Positions 4,466-62,257 of a DNA stretch of 64,000 nucleotides are shown piece after piece. The DNA lies in the NCBI RefSeq assembly GCF_002999235.1, contig NZ_CP027236.1, positions 1,302,001 to 1,366,000 on the forward strand. Reading direction: 5' to 3'. The notes beneath the pieces were generated by a model. It made no database searches. It was not told the DNA's origin and saw only the letters and a program-made list of their open reading frames with translations. How positions within the stretch are numbered: the stretch's first letter is position 1; each line of letters starts with the position of its first letter. Source of the stretch: Actinomyces sp. oral taxon 897. Lineage in GTDB: Bacteria; Actinomycetota; Actinomycetes; Actinomycetales; Actinomycetaceae. A program made the translations under genes and the position numbers.

Positions 4466-5383
4466 GTGGCCGCGCCCCCCACCCCGTCCCCGCACGCCAG
4501 CGGCACCCCGGGCCTGGACGCTGGCACCACCCTGTCCCCGCACGCCAGCGGCACCCCGGGCCTGGGCGTGCGGGGCGTCCGCCTGTCCTACCACCCGGCC
4601 CACCCCGTCATCGAGGACCTGACCACGGCGGTCACGCCGGGGGCGGTGACCATGATCGTGGGCCCCAACGCCTGCGGGAAGTCCACGCTGCTGCGCGCCC
4701 TGAGCCGGGTCATCTCCCCGGACGCGGGGCAGGTGGTCCTCGACGGCCGGGACATCGCCACCCTGGCCCCCAAGCAGCTGGCCCGGCGCGTGGGGCTGCT
4801 GGCCCAGTCCTCGATCGCCCCCGCCGGCATTACGGTGCACGAGCTGGTGGCGCGCGGGCGCTACCCCCACCAGTCGATCCTGCACCAGTGGTCCGCCGCC
4901 GACGACGAGGCGGTCAGCGAGGCCATGGAGCGCACCCACGTGGACGTCCTGGCCGCCCGTCGCGTCTCCTCCCTGTCCGGCGGGCAGCGTCAGCGGGTGT
5001 GGGTGGCCATGGCCCTGGCCCAGCGCACCGACGTCCTCCTGCTGGACGAGCCCACCACCTACCTGGACCTGGCCCACCAGGTCGACGTCCTGGAGCTGTG
5101 CCGCGAGCTGAACGCCGAGCTGGGCACGACGATCGTGGCCGTGCTCCACGACCTGAACCAGGCCTGCCGGTACGGTGACGAGGTCATTGCCATGCGTGCG
5201 GGCGCCATCGTGGCCCACGGCGCCCCGAGCGAGGTGGTCACCGCCCAGGTGGTGGAGGAGGTGTTCGGCCTGCCGGTCCAGGTCATCTCCGACCCCCTGA
5301 CCGGCACGCCCCTGGTGCTCCCGCTGCCGCGCCCGCACCTAAGCCGCCGTGGAAGTACCTTAGTCACTGGCGACGTACCTTAG
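4466..5383 (+). CDS. Iron-siderophore ABC transporter ATP-binding protein
   Basis: A 305-aa ATPase of the FepC/FecE family that would power ferric-siderophore import with two FecCD permeases. The Walker A motif is GPNACGKST (66-74), the signature LSGGQ (170-174), Walker B VLLLDEP (190-196), and the H-loop lies in VAVLHDLNQ. All catalytic residues look intact. The first 33 residues hold a duplicated SPHASGTPGL segment (a direct repeat in the DNA at about 4488 and 4536) that is not part of the ATPase fold; a start near VRGVRLSY is possible but no better start is visible. The last residues, DVP-stop, are encoded by a unit of the 20-bp repeat array. Its permease and binding-protein partners here are broken, so it is either orphaned or works with permeases encoded elsewhere. 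Confidence 0.88.
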   Translation: MAAPPTPSPHASGTPGLDAGTTLSPHASGTPGLGVRGVRLSYHPAHPVIEDLTTAVTPGAVTMIVGPNACGKSTLLRALSRVISPDAGQVVLDGRDIATLAPKQLARRVGLLAQSSIAPAGITVHELVARGRYPHQSILHQWSAADDEAVSEAMERTHVDVLAARRVSSLSGGQRQRVWVAMALAQRTDVLLLDEPTTYLDLAHQVDVLELCRELNAELGTTIVAVLHDLNQACRYGDEVIAMRAGAIVAHGAPSEVVTAQVVEEVFGLPVQVISDPLTGTPLVLPLPRPHLSRRGSTLVTGDVP

Positions 5384-5516
5384 CTGACGGCAACGTACCT
5401 TAGCTGACGGCGACGTACCCTAGTCATACGTCCCCGCCGACTAAGGTACGTCCGCGATCCCTAGGGTACGTCCCGGATCCCTAGGGTACGTCCCGGATCC
5501 CTAGGGTACGTCCGCG
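5351..5516. repeat. Mirrored array of a 20-bp repeat (family A, copy 1)
   Basis: Four forward units with core CGTACC(T/C)TAG start at 5354, 5374, 5394 and 5414 (the first begins with A). Four inverted units (GGTACG) follow at 5445, 5465, 5485 and 5505, with a degenerate CATACG at 5425. Every unit lies on an exact 20-bp grid. The central pair can fold into a 14-bp stem with one mismatch. The array sits between two convergent genes, and its GACGTACC(T/C)TAG supplies the final Asp-Val-Pro-stop of both. Likely a bidirectional terminator or a phased protein-binding array. Confidence 0.8.
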
Positions 5517-6421
5517 GCGGGCGGCACGAGCTGGCTCCCCACGACGTCGGCCAGGGAGGGGAAGCGCCCGGTGGCGGCGAAGTCCTGGGAGCGGGCCCAG
5601 TCGGCCAGTGCGGCCAGGCGCTCGTGGGCGTCCGTCCCCGCCTGGGGGCCGTAGACGGTCACGCCCGTGCCCGGCACGCCCGGGAGGGTGAGCACGTCGT
5701 AGGTCAGAGGCAGGTCCCCGACGGCCGGGTGGTGGTAGGTCTTGGTCCCGCTGCGGTGCTCGTGGACGTCGTGGCGCCCCCAGGCGGTACGGAAGTCCTC
5801 GGAGTCCTCGGTGAGCTCGGCGACGACAGCGGCCAGGGCCGGGTCGGCGGGGTGACGGGCGGACTCCATGCGCAGCATGGCGGCGATAATCACCTGGGCC
5901 CGGTCACGGCGCCCCCCGTAGAACTCCGGGGCGGCCGCCCCGGTGAAGGCGAAGCGGGCCAGGTTCGGGGTCCGGCCGGGGTACTCCTGGTACACGGCGT
6001 CGTACAGGGCACGTCCCAGGAGGTTCGCGCCGATAATGTCCTGCGCGGCGGTGGTCGCCAGCGCCGGGGCCGCGACGTGGGCCAGGACCGCCCGCAGGGA
6101 GGGCGCCGGATCCCGGGGCTCCGGGGTGTCCTGGCCCCCGTGGGCCAGGGCGAACAGGTAGGCGCGCTCGACGTCGTCCAGGCGCAGGGCCCGGGCCAGG
6201 GCGTTGAGGACGGAGTCGGAGGCGCCCCGGATGCGGCCGCGCTCCAGGCGCGTGTAGTAGTCCGGGTTCACCCCCGCCAGCGCGGCCACCTCCTGGCGGC
6301 GCAGGCCCGGGACGCGCCGGTCCTCCCCGAGGTCGGGCAGCCCGACGTCCCGGGGCGTCAGCCGGGCCCGCCGGGAGGTCAGGAAGCCGGAGACGACGGC
6401 GCGCTGCGGGTCGGTGGGCAT
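5501..6421 (-). CDS. Helix-turn-helix regulator with MmyB-like ligand-binding domain
   Basis: A 306-aa transcription regulator. The N-terminal XRE-type helix-turn-helix is seen at about residues 30-70 (LRRQEVAALAGVNPDYYTRL, then ERGR). The rest fits the MmyB-like ligand-binding fold of actinobacterial regulators, with 'FALAH' near 90 and the aromatic-rich core (YEYPGRTPNLARFAF-like) near 145-160. Such regulators usually sit divergent from the oxidoreductase they control, as here with the flavoprotein gene 350 bp away. The start is ATG at 6421. The C-terminal ADVP-stop comes from the repeat array. Confidence 0.85.
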   Translation of the reverse strand: MPTDPQRAVVSGFLTSRRARLTPRDVGLPDLGEDRRVPGLRRQEVAALAGVNPDYYTRLERGRIRGASDSVLNALARALRLDDVERAYLFALAHGGQDTPEPRDPAPSLRAVLAHVAAPALATTAAQDIIGANLLGRALYDAVYQEYPGRTPNLARFAFTGAAAPEFYGGRRDRAQVIIAAMLRMESARHPADPALAAVVAELTEDSEDFRTAWGRHDVHEHRSGTKTYHHPAVGDLPLTYDVLTLPGVPGTGVTVYGPQAGTDAHERLAALADWARSQDFAATGRFPSLADVVGSQLVPPAADVP

Positions 6422-7310: not shown

Positions 7311-7470
7311 GCCGGGGACGTGCTCTAGCCACCGGCGACGTACCCTGGCCGGCGAGAACGTACCCTGACCACCGGGAACGTACCTTAGCCATCGGGGACG
7401 TGCCTCAGAGGTACTCTAACGTACGTTACCGGCGGCTAAGGTACGTCACCGACGTCGCACATACGTCACC
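7311..7470. repeat. Mirrored array of a 20-bp repeat (family A, copy 2)
   Basis: Forward CGTACC-type cores lie at 7319 (degenerate), 7339, 7359, 7379 and 7399 (CGTGCC). Inverted GTACG cores follow at 7420, 7440 and 7460 (CATACG). The period is exactly 20 bp. The arrangement matches the array at 5351: forward half, then inverted half, lying between two convergent genes (flavoprotein and DUF559 protein). Confidence 0.75.
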
Positions 7471-8668: not shown

Positions 8669-8745
8669 GACGTACCTTAGTCGGCGGGGACGTATCTTGG
8701 AAGTACGTCCCCGACGACTAAGGTACGTCCCCGCCGACTAAAGAA
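8669..8745. repeat. Family A repeat, copy 3: 26-bp hairpin
   Basis: Positions 8669-8694 pair with 8704-8729 in a 26-bp stem with one mismatch and a 9-nt loop. The units are CGTACC at 8671 and CGTATC at 8691 (forward), then AGTACG at 8702 and GGTACG at 8722 (inverted), again 20 bp apart. It lies just downstream of the alcohol dehydrogenase gene and upstream of the DUF559 gene on the same strand, so it could end dehydrogenase transcription. Confidence 0.78.
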
Positions 8746-11108: not shown

Positions 11109-11972
11109 TTGAACTGGCTGCACGCCGTCGTCCTCGGCATCGTGGAGGGCATTACCGAGTTCCTGCCCGTCTCCTCCACGGGACACCTCAATATCGTGGA
11201 GAAGCTGATGGGCTACAAGATCGACGACAAGGGTATGACCGCCTTCACGGCCGTCATCCAGATCGGCGCGATCCTGGCGGCCATCGTCTACTTCTGGCGT
11301 GACATCGTCCGCATCGTCACCGCCTGGTTCAAGGGCCTGGTCAGACACGAGGCACGTGAGGACCCCGACTACACGCTGGGCTGGGGCATTATCCTGGGCT
11401 CGGTGCCGGTCGCGGTCGTGGGCCTGCTGCTCAAGGACTTTATCGAGGTCACGGCCCGCTCCCTGTGGGTCATTGCCGCGGCCCTGGTGCTGTGGAGCGC
11501 CGTCATGTGGTGGGCGGACCAGCACTCCGGGGGCCCGCCCGGGGCCGCGCACGCCTCCCTGGGCAAGGGCATGAGCCAGGTAGGGATCAGGGACGCCCTG
11601 GTCATCGGCTCCTTCCAGGCCCTCTCCCCGGTCCTGCCGGGTATCTCCCGCTCGGGGGCCACCATCTCCGCGGGCCTGCTGCGCGGCTTCGACCGGGTGA
11701 CGGCCACCCGCCTGTCCTTCTTTATGGGCATCCCCGCCCTGGTGGCGGCGGGTCTGCTGGAGGCCGTCACCGCGGCCGGGGACATTGCCTCCGGGCCGGG
11801 CTGGGTCTCCACGGGCGTCGCCACCGTGGTCTCCGGCGTGGTGGCCTACGCGACCATCGCCTGGCTGCTGCGCTTCGTGTCCTCCAACAAGTTCACCGGG
11901 TTCCTGGTCTACCGCGTCGCCCTGGGCATGGTCATTGTGGGCCTGGTCCTGGGGGGCCTGGACCCGGCCTGA
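11109..11972 (+). CDS. uppP: Undecaprenyl-diphosphatase
   Basis: A 287-aa integral membrane phosphatase that recycles undecaprenyl pyrophosphate to the monophosphate carrier for cell-wall synthesis; it also confers bacitracin tolerance. The two family signatures are present: EGITEFLPVSSTGH near residues 14-27 and LPGISRSGATISAGL near 177-191, with several hydrophobic helices between and after. The start is TTG at 11109, preceded by GGGAG. No better start exists, because family homology begins at the first residues. It fits with the wall-polymer genes in the window, but is not in an operon with them. Confidence 0.93.
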   Translation: MNWLHAVVLGIVEGITEFLPVSSTGHLNIVEKLMGYKIDDKGMTAFTAVIQIGAILAAIVYFWRDIVRIVTAWFKGLVRHEAREDPDYTLGWGIILGSVPVAVVGLLLKDFIEVTARSLWVIAAALVLWSAVMWWADQHSGGPPGAAHASLGKGMSQVGIRDALVIGSFQALSPVLPGISRSGATISAGLLRGFDRVTATRLSFFMGIPALVAAGLLEAVTAAGDIASGPGWVSTGVATVVSGVVAYATIAWLLRFVSSNKFTGFLVYRVALGMVIVGLVLGGLDPA

Positions 11973-12060: not shown

Positions 12061-13491
12061 ATGAGGATCCTGCACACCTCCGACTGGCACCTGGGACGTA
12101 CCTTCCACGGGCGCCTCCTGGGCGAGGACCACGCGGCCTTCGCCGACCACCTGGTGGACCTGGTGCGCACGGAGTCGGTGGACGCGGTCCTGGTGTGCGG
12201 GGACGTCTACGACCGGGCGATCCCGCCCAACGACGCCGTGGCCCTGCTGGACGAGACGCTACGGCGCCTGAGCGAGCGCACCCGGGTGGTCCTGACCCCC
12301 GGCAACCACGACTCCGCCCGCCGTCTGGGGTTCGCGGCGGACCTCATGCGCGAGGGCCTGGTCATCCGCGCCCGCACCGCTGGGCTGGACCGGGGCATTA
12401 TCCTGCCCGACTCCCAGGGGCGTGAGGCCGCCGTCGTGCACGCCCTGCCCTACCTGGACCCCGACGCCGCCCGGGAGATCCTGCCGCCGCTGCTCCAAGA
12501 GCGCCTGGGCGAGGTGGTGCCCGCCGGCCGGGGCGCCGACCAGGACGCGCCCGGGGAGCAGGGCCACCCGGCCGCCACCGGTGGGAGTCGGGCGGGCGGA
12601 GGGGCCGAGGCCGCACCGCGCGCACCCCTGCTGCCCCGCTCCCACGAGGCGGTCGTCTCGGCCGCCCTGCGCCTGGTGGCAGCCGACCTGCGGCGGGTGC
12701 GCCGCGGGCGCAGCCGGCGCCTGCCCAGCCTGCTCATGGCGCACGCCTTCGTGGTGGGCGGCAGGGCGAGCGAGTCCGAGCGCGACATCCGCGTGGGCGG
12801 CGTGGACTGCGTCCCCTCAGAGATCTTCACCACCATGGGCGGATCACCGCTGGCGTCCCAGTGCGGCGGCCTGGACTACGTGGCCCTGGGCCACCTCCAC
12901 CGCCCCCAGGAGGTGGGCCCCCACCGCGGAGGGGAGCGCGGAGAGCAGGACCAGCGCACCGGTACCGGCGCACCGGGTGCCCCGGGTGGCGGCACCCCGG
13001 GTGCCCCAGGGGGCGGGCCGCGCCTGGTCTACTGCGGCTCCCCGCTGCCCTTCTCCTTTGACGAGGCCGAGGACGCCCGCCCCAAGTCCTCGGTCCTGCT
13101 GGACCTGTCCGCGGACGGGGTCACGTCGTTGGAGCGCATAGCGGTGCCGGTACACCACCGGGTGCGTACCGTGGAGGGCACCATGACCGAGCTGCTCTCC
13201 GGCACCTTCGACGACGCCCGGGACGCCTGGGTGCGCGTCGTCCTGCACGGTCGGCGTCCGCCGGGGGCGCTGGCCGTCCTCAAGGACCGCTTCCCGGGGC
13301 TGCTGGCCTTCCACCACCAGGCACCCTGCCAGCCCGGACGCCAGGTGGCGGTCACCGCGGCGGCGGACCCGCTGCGGATCGCCGAGGACTTCCTGGACGA
13401 CGTCGGGGCCCACCCGCCCGGTGACGCCGAGCGCGCCGTCCTGCGTCAGGCCTACGAGTCCGCCCTGGCGGCACAGCGGAGCGAGAGATGA
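12061..13491 (+). CDS. sbcD: Exonuclease subunit SbcD
   Basis: A 476-aa nuclease subunit of the SbcCD (Mre11-Rad50-like) complex that cleaves hairpins and blocked DNA ends. The calcineurin-type phosphoesterase motifs are intact: TSDWHLGRTF (7-16), GDVYDRAIPP, GNHDSARR, and GHLHRPQ with YCGSPLPFSFDE further on. Two Gly/Ala/Pro-rich insertions interrupt the fold (about residues 155-190 and 290-320); they are in frame and look like loops. The start is ATG at 12061, with AAGGG upstream. The stop overlaps the sbcC start by 4 nt, so translation is coupled. Confidence 0.93.
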   Translation: MRILHTSDWHLGRTFHGRLLGEDHAAFADHLVDLVRTESVDAVLVCGDVYDRAIPPNDAVALLDETLRRLSERTRVVLTPGNHDSARRLGFAADLMREGLVIRARTAGLDRGIILPDSQGREAAVVHALPYLDPDAAREILPPLLQERLGEVVPAGRGADQDAPGEQGHPAATGGSRAGGGAEAAPRAPLLPRSHEAVVSAALRLVAADLRRVRRGRSRRLPSLLMAHAFVVGGRASESERDIRVGGVDCVPSEIFTTMGGSPLASQCGGLDYVALGHLHRPQEVGPHRGGERGEQDQRTGTGAPGAPGGGTPGAPGGGPRLVYCGSPLPFSFDEAEDARPKSSVLLDLSADGVTSLERIAVPVHHRVRTVEGTMTELLSGTFDDARDAWVRVVLHGRRPPGALAVLKDRFPGLLAFHHQAPCQPGRQVAVTAAADPLRIAEDFLDDVGAHPPGDAERAVLRQAYESALAAQRSER

Positions 13492-28178: not shown

Positions 28179-28242
28179 GAACAAGTACCGTTCTCGCGAC
28201 GAACAAGTACCGTTCTCGCGAGCAATAAGTACCGTTCTCGCG
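28179..28242. repeat. 22-bp-period repeat (family B, copy 1)
   Basis: Three same-orientation units, each with AAGTACCGTTCTCGCG and a 6-nt variable part; GTACCG begins at 28185, 28207 and 28229, an exact 22-bp period. The array lies between convergent genes, about 20 bp from the secA stop. The same unit occurs in the opposite orientation near 60.9 kb. Confidence 0.78.
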
Positions 28243-60880: not shown

Positions 60881-60940
60881 CGCGAGAACGGTACTTATTC
60901 GCCGCGAGAACGGTACTTATTGCTCGCGAGAACGGAAGGG
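60881..60940. repeat. 22-bp-period repeat (family B, copy 2, inverted)
   Basis: CGGTAC begins at 60889 and 60911, and a degenerate CGGAAG at 60933, an exact 22-bp period. The units CGCGAGAACGGTACTTATT are the reverse complement of those at 28179-28242. The array lies after purU, facing the minus-strand tetR remnant, again between 3' ends. Confidence 0.78.
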
Positions 60941-61430: not shown

Positions 61431-61668
61431 CAGCTCCTGACTCCGCCCTGAGCGCCCGCACCGGATACCGCCCCGGTCACGGGTCGGAGATCCACGGTAC
61501 CAGGATCCGCAGAGGTGCGACCATCGGGCTGACCTCGGGCAAACTGGACGACGGCGCGCAAGCACCCCCGCAGCCCGGGCGAGCGCGCCAGCGGCGTGAG
61601 CGTGCGGTGGCGACCGAGCAGCCCTCCCGCAGCCCGGGCGGGGACAACGGTACCGCGCGCCCAGCGGG

Positions 61669-61776
61669 GGTGAACGCGCTGCCACCCAGGTGAACGCGCC
61701 TCAGAGCAGGTGAACGCGCTGTCGCTGGGGTGAACGTGCCTCCTGGCAGCGTTCATATACGCAAGAGCACGTTCAC
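61669..61776. repeat. 20-bp-period TGAAC array
   Basis: TGAACGCGC or TGAACGTGC begins at 61671, 61691, 61711 and 61731. Inverted GTTCA follows at 61751 and GTTCAC at 61771. All six are on an exact 20-bp grid, so two helical turns separate each site on one DNA face. Period 20 is not a multiple of 3, so it is not a coding repeat. It lies in an 800-bp gene-free region. Confidence 0.75.
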
Positions 61777-62257
61777 CCGGCCTTAAGCGCGTCCAGCTCG
61801 AGCGAGCCCGGCGCGAGCGGCCCCGGCGCACGCCCAGACGTCCACAGACTGAGGAGGACCATACCCAGGGCGACGCCGGACCCCTGGCGGACGCGGCGCG
61901 AGACCCATGACGAGGAGCGCACTCAGCAGGACAGCCCCGAAGCCGACCCCGCGCCAGCATCCGAGCCGAGTTCGCGGGCGAGGGCGGACGGCTGTCGCGC
62001 TGGCGGCCACCACCCCACGGGCGAGGGCGGACCGACGGCCGCCCGGGCCTGGCCGACCTGCGCGAGCCGACCGCCCCGCGAACGAATACAGGCCTCCAGG
62101 GCGGCGGCCAGCGGCGGCCAGCCGGGGGCGGCGGCCCGCCAGCGGCAGTCAGCCAGCCAGGCGGCCACCACCCCACGGGCAAGGGAGGACGCACCGTATA
62201 CAGGCAGACCACCTCGACACGCCCGACCCACCATCTCAATATGTCACATCTCACACT
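61777..62257. repeat. Gene-free region with a 31-bp direct repeat
   Basis: GGCGGCCACCACCCCACGGG, continuing with GCGAGGGCGGAC, occurs at 62002 and again from about 62160 with two or three differences. No credible gene is seen between the tetR remnant and fda. This may be decayed coding DNA. Confidence 0.5.

Follow-up and report, generated by a model that had tools for sequence, protein, structure and literature searches.

The genome of Actinomyces sp. oral taxon 897 (the source genome) carries a dispersed family of mirrored arrays, in which short sites built on the hexamer CGTACC recur in steps of 20 bp and the two arms meet in a preferred helical phase. The word that is repeated is constant within a genome and differs between species, while the geometry is kept. 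It is tempting to regard each array as a dyad-symmetric row of sites for a candidate DNA-binding protein, with a roadblock or insulator role in the source species; from genome comparison we give this reading a little less than an even chance.

Mirrored arrays in the source genome

The window, i.e., the whole stretch of 64 kb that was analysed, contains the array from which this work started, between a gene for a FepC-type iron-siderophore ABC ATPase (4466-5383, forward strand) and a gene for an XRE/MmyB-type regulator (5501-6421, reverse strand). Direct reading, a repeat search and a site scan all confirm the repeat array that the original prediction had placed at 5351-5516, and extend its sites over 5334-5510. 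The left, forward arm (5334-5423, forward strand) consists of 10-mers CGTACCYTAG starting at 5334 (two mismatches), 5354 (one mismatch), 5374, 5394 and 5414, and the right, inverted arm (5441-5510, reverse strand) of 10-mers starting at 5441, 5461, 5481 and 5501, both with a period of 20. The four forward sites originally counted are thus those from 5354 onwards, joined by the degenerate one at 5334; among the five inverted sites claimed, four are full 10-mers and the fifth probably corresponds to an incomplete site, CATACGTC, at 5425-5432. A single 20-bp grid had also been proposed: each arm does follow an exact 20-bp grid, but the arms form two mutually offset grids, separated by 25 bp between their exact hexamers. 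Random spacing, the outcome named beforehand as speaking against the array, is refuted by the exact 20-bp steps. Read by eye, the inner border of the arms contains a degenerate dyad, GACGTACC-CTAGT-CATACGTC, with a 5-nt centre (5412-5432). Two further mirrored arrays of the same word lie nearby, one at 7319-7445 between convergent genes (five forward sites, two inverted), the other at 8671-8740 (two forward sites and one inverted counted, another degenerate inverted one seen by eye). Allowing one mismatch at most, the 64-kb window holds 17 matches to the word, as compared with 3.4 ± 1.7 in 100 shuffles, whose maximum was 7.

At the scale of the source genome (3.25 Mb, two contigs), ACGTACCNTAG has 75 exact occurrences, its reversed control none; likewise, 103 pairs of the word at 20 bp, of which a part was listed, were found with up to three mismatches and none for the reversed control. 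From fetched loci and the window we assembled 33 arrays. Both orientations are present in 27, one locus (L072) being a single site, and in 27/27 mirrored arrays the forward sites precede the inverted ones, with one to five sites per arm. Among 166 units, every position of CGTACC retains its letter in 145-164, partly by choice since 10-mers were admitted with up to three mismatches, and the spacers of the same units are only.57 identical between loci; the admission rule favours the core, yet the contrast between core and spacer is large. Spacer identity within arms (.60, as compared with.57 between loci) led us to reject recent tandem duplication in the source genome, whereas some homogenising within arms is seen in the genome G011 (.70 within arms,.62 between loci). 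A phage or plasmid origin was likewise rejected, as the array pattern had no match among viral contigs or plasmids, and so was a known RNA family, the window giving no match to Rfam models at gathering thresholds. The two-copy pattern of the window word was absent from 212 other genomes of the family, and a search of a genome collection with the window-word pattern returned one match, Actinomyces oris.

The original prediction that both neighbouring genes end in Asp-Val-Pro-stop holds: fepC ends GAC GTA CCT TAG (5372-5383, forward strand), its final codons and stop lying inside the array, and the regulator gene (5501-6421, reverse strand) ends GAC GTA CCC TAG inside the outermost inverted unit. 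The claim that the array supplies stop codons is therefore true of the window locus and fails as a rule, for it applies to 4 out of 47 array-facing gene ends; the other two are L054 R (GDVP*) and L066 L (NVP*, GTA CCG TAA). As outer units of the G011 arrays also lack a stop, a stop-codon cassette was rejected as the function. Among 18 of 240 homologues whose C-termini were read, the FepC relatives P0001 and P0003 end in TGDVP and ADGNVP, and P0002, P0004, P0013, P0015, P0018 and P0030 have no array-type ending. The regulator homologues P0121, P0123-P0125 and P0127 end in PAADVP (P0121 may be the source genome's own), P0126 ends in VADVP after a frame change, P0122 reads on, by eye, into more repeat units, and P0128, P0130 and P0131 have no PAADVP-type ending. 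Near relatives have therefore kept the array of the window locus, and it codes for the last residues. At another locus, the ispF gene of G003 (taken as A. oris) ends GTC GTA CCG TAG; in the 15 of 30 ispF loci read out, arrays, partly degenerate, were found in G003, G022, G023 and G024 and none in G025, G033, G037 and G041.

Helical phase and word turnover among genomes

A loose search for CGTACC triples matched 13 of 49 genomes of the genus, the reversed control giving zero to two matches per genome and strand. CGTACC is embedded in different words in the mirrored arrays of G003 (TTCGTACC), of G011 and G019 (GGTCGTACC), of G036 and G026 (GNTTCGTACC) and, with steps of 20 and 22 bp, of G014; G012 has a similar word and no clear mirror, and the triple matches of G018, G027, G029, G038 and G042 are different repeats. 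When the search was widened to the order, 13 of 396 genomes, the source genome included, gave any match; most of the other matches read out were devoid of this mirrored architecture, and G523 (L240), which belongs to a different family within the order, contains a perfect mirrored GGTCGTACC array with three forward sites, two inverted sites and a 5-bp centre. It is worth mentioning here that G016, G020, G022, G024, G033 and G041, six genomes classed as different species, share a region (L291-L296) of 1.8-3.0 kb, bearing one array, at 96-99.8% identity; by comparison with the other loci, L294 is short of exactly one 20-bp unit.

The geometry is strict. In the 27 mirrored arrays of the source genome, where sites with up to three mismatches were taken, the inner gap between CGTACC and GGTACG is 5 (10 arrays), 15 (9), 25 (7) or 86 (1) bp. 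When the hexamers had to be exact, this genome gave 31 gaps between successive forward and inverted sites, of which 30 equal 5 modulo 10 and one is 16; the step from one such hexamer to the next on the same strand was 20 bp for 64 of 70 and 40 bp for two. In other genomes, the inner gap is 5, 15 or 25 in 13 of 14 array-supported cases, the exception being G455 with a gap of 1; this count excludes an unsupported pair in G012 with a gap of 10. A second set, made of 27 loci of G011, 5 of G026, 2 of G036 and 1 of G012, and overlapping the 14 array-supported cases in its G011 and G026 loci, gave gaps of 15 (19), 25 (5), 35 (5), 75 (1), 10 (3) and 2 (1), that is 30 of 34 equal to 5 modulo 10, and same-strand steps between successive hexamers of 20 (87), 21 (12), 41 (10) and 40 (4), with eight others. 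We also scanned 213 genomes of the family, independently of arrays, for the pattern GTACCTTAG-N{1,20}-CTAAGGTAC. Nine genomes match, and of 19 distinct places listed, which do not hold every G011 match, 17 have 7 nt between the halves and 2 have 17 nt; among the nine genomes are the six that have the L291-L296 region in common, and these are not independent.

The DNA helix makes one turn in about 10.5 bp. The 20-bp steps together with gaps of 5 modulo 10 are therefore explained by placement of the sites on the same face, and the sites stand in helical register in the source genome, in the other genomes and in the second set, apart from the gaps of 86, 16, 10, 2 and 1. The arrays may share descent, in which case the phase could be partly inherited rather than selected. 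In the mechanism that we propose, each unit of about 20 bp (core CGTACC, here GACGTACCYTAG) would bind one protomer or dimer of the candidate protein; the step of about two turns would align each arm's sites along a single helical face, where binding might be cooperative; and the inner inverted pair, whose hexamer starts lie 11, 21 or 31 bp apart, would link the two arms symmetrically. At gene ends of the source species, the filled array would then form a roadblock or insulator effective from both sides, by which transcription is stopped or kept separate.

Gene ends, and the choice between RNA stems and individually read sites

Genes were called with our own codon-usage script. Of the 33 arrays of the source genome, 16 are flanked by convergent genes, 15 by tandem genes and 2 by divergent genes; among the other adjacent pairs of the same loci, obtained by subtraction, 18/120 are convergent (p = 2e-4) and 27/120 divergent (p =.04), and with the window alone as background, where 11/47 pairs are convergent, p is.03, the convergent and divergent p-values assuming that arrays are independent. 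The median distance to the array is 45 bp for gene ends (47 genes) and 127 bp for gene starts (19 genes). The enrichment at 3' ends that the original prediction called for is thus present in the source genome, and it is missing from the second set, which is mostly G011: of 32 classed arrays (four more were unclassed), 5 are convergent, 21 tandem and 6 divergent, against 11 convergent, 59 tandem and 13 divergent among 83 background pairs, i.e., without convergent bias. The arrays of this set often lie farther from genes, and four G011 loci that were read out show long intergenic stretches. It follows that a role as "terminator" is not general, and the use of gene ends may be a trait of the source species or be linked to how short its intergenic spaces are.

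These placements bear on another explanation, which we consider rather unlikely, namely that the arrays work as RNA: the transcript of either strand would form a long hairpin, serving as a bidirectional intrinsic terminator without U-tract or as a stabiliser of 3' ends. Proximity to gene ends in the source genome is in its favour, and so is the fold of the window array, the only one folded, whose RNA (5351-5516) reaches -87.3 kcal/mol as compared with -57.7 ± 4.2 for shuffles (z = -7.0); a strong fold is expected from any mirrored repeat. Intrinsic terminators are inverted repeats downstream of genes that yield a stable RNA hairpin. The window array has the stable hairpin, but the T-run that should follow it is absent: in our own scan of the source genome, 0/31 array-associated gene ends carry a hairpin with a T-run. 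Such structures are rare here anyway (10/249 other gene ends), so this comparison is not informative on the idea, which we dropped, that arrays replace T-run terminators. Other differences from intrinsic terminators are the repeated 20-bp units and arms that do not co-evolve. Besides, folding offers no reason for gaps of 5 modulo 10, and the lack of convergent bias in the second set also runs against a terminator.

Selection for a long stem would be expected to leave facing arms more similar than arms drawn from different loci, and they are not. Over the 27 mirrored arrays of the source genome, facing-arm spacers are.587 identical, against.585 ±.014 when arms are swapped between loci, and the facing 10-mers.828 against.822 ±.010. 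Pairability that tolerates G-U is.720 for facing spacers and.701 ±.012 for swapped ones (p =.06), a weak hint towards an RNA stem. In G011 the facing arms tend, if at all, to be less similar than swapped ones (.596 against.633 ±.017; 21 loci with both arms, from 22 true centres). G000, G011 and G019 have in common a central hairpin TTAGA-N5-TCTAA, its loop being variable, which would suit an RNA function; however, in 18 true G011 centres the two halves pair at 4.33 of 5 positions as compared with 4.27 for shuffled partners (p =.22), and an apparent centre-stem signal in 26 mixed G011 centres (3.96 against 3.35) was gone with these true centres. In neither of the two genomes, then, do facing arms resemble each other more than swapped ones do. 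This result speaks against selection for a long RNA stem and favours sites that are read individually, the simplest candidate reader being a DNA-binding protein. The original prediction had hesitated between a protein-binding array and a folded bidirectional terminator; the former is better supported, by the phase, the absence of co-evolution between arms and a word that stays constant within a genome and differs from species to species, while the latter keeps the fold and the placement at gene ends in its favour.

Dispersed repeats, related systems and significance

One may also wonder whether the arrays are an old dispersed family, similar to MITEs or REPs, spread by a transposase or by recombination and devoid of host function, the bias towards gene ends being the outcome of insertions tolerated away from promoters. 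We hold this as unlikely. Among the best 20 locus pairs of the source genome, stretches of 61-120 bp are 80-92% alike, the second set has no orientation bias and includes the long intergenic stretches of G011, the distribution within the genus is patchy, with some of the 13 matching genomes matching through other repeats, and exactly one 20-bp unit was lost from one of six near-identical loci, all of which would fit such a family. Against it, the arrays have no fixed ends, arms varying from one site to five; in the same best 20 pairs the matches begin no farther than 7 bp outward from the first site and no two whole arrays are nearly identical; the core is conserved against diverged spacers; and the geometry is kept across species while words change. 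Relatives without an array carry other intergenic DNA, and no clean insertion point was read at the prsA, murB and ispF loci (prsA, 30 loci, of which 7 without reading and 1 in a wrong frame; murB, 30 loci, of which 1 without reading, 4 in a wrong frame and 1 incomplete).

REP/BIME elements (PMC2817692) are dispersed, extragenic and present in many copies, with inverted units and proposed protein binding. The arrays resemble them in all these respects: they are dispersed, extragenic and multicopy, contain inverted units and are proposed to bind protein. REPs are palindromic and alternate in orientation; by contrast, the array unit (GACGTACCYTAG and spacer) is not palindromic by eye, and an arm is a direct run with one mirror point. 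The Y1 tyrosine transposase (RAYT, PF01797) has no match in the source genome, as compared with 5 matching genomes among 14 controls. A REP/BIME system with RAYT was consequently rejected, on this ground, on the non-palindromic unit and on the order of forward run then inverted run in every mirrored array. Iterons of plasmids are direct repeats of about two helical turns, bound by protein on one face; the arrays share the direct repeats and the spacing, unlike iterons being chromosomal, dispersed, mirrored and near genes. In mouse rDNA, the short Sal-box sites downstream of the gene are bound by TTF-I, which makes a block to transcription; that system is eukaryotic, polar and restricted to one type of locus, whereas the present arrays are bacterial, mirrored and found at many loci. 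Among the papers listed from the open-licence literature, taken by title and the beginning of abstracts, no description of such arrays was found.

The CGTACC family is not the only one. A de novo scan of 864 kb (the window, 400 kb of the source genome and 200 kb each of G019 and G026) gave 105 candidate clusters, block-shuffled DNA giving 19; coding repeats make up many of the 105, and several are mirrored arrays of other words. A polar set with a 22-bp period and the core GAGAACGGTACTT, present in the window at 28183-28239 and 60884-60918, counts 277 exact adjacent pairs in the source genome and none in 212 relatives of the family. Leaving out one array too close to an edge, 29 of these polar arrays were placed: 23 have the orientation of a gene ending at that place and 3 are antisense, 2 have no such gene and 1 lies within an ORF call. 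A mirrored family GTGAACGYGCTC of period 20/21 is found in the window at 61667-61780 and in L180 at about 11660-11870 and 13090-13300; a transposon with array ends was considered for the two W4 arrays of L180 and rejected, as the ORF between them is lipoprotein-like and no transposase. The prsA array is directly followed by a mirrored array GACATTTTGTGC of period 19/20 (L065, about 2845-2945; L181, from 7542), and L182 contains at 1108-1191 a 21-bp array of CCTCACT(C/G)TA with inverted copies. In G026, single-orientation 23-bp arrays CGTACCGAGGTCGGTAGATCTTA occupy many loci, together with mirrored GTTGGACCGC arrays (L198-L205); a sample of 12 did not confirm that the 23-bp arrays share the sense of W2. 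G019 has 22-bp mirrored arrays GAGATCGGTC (L188, L189, L193 and L159), one of them behind murB.

If the arrays were only repeats, they would still be a dispersed repeat class of unusually strict geometry. If a protein fills them, they would represent a genome-wide, sequence-specific termination or insulation that relies neither on hairpin and U-tract nor on Rho, and whose word changes between species; the array words make the candidate factor directly fishable with array DNA. A wider proposal, which we regard as doubtful, is that in Actinomyces and some relatives many gene ends are organised by protein-bound, phased and mirrored arrays acting as factor-dependent bidirectional terminators or insulators, with species-specific co-evolved words, binder and word turning over together, and with the polar 22-bp set serving single gene ends in the source genome. 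Should this be true, the organisation of gene ends in these bacteria may be viewed, by analogy, as a bacterial counterpart to eukaryotic roadblock termination.
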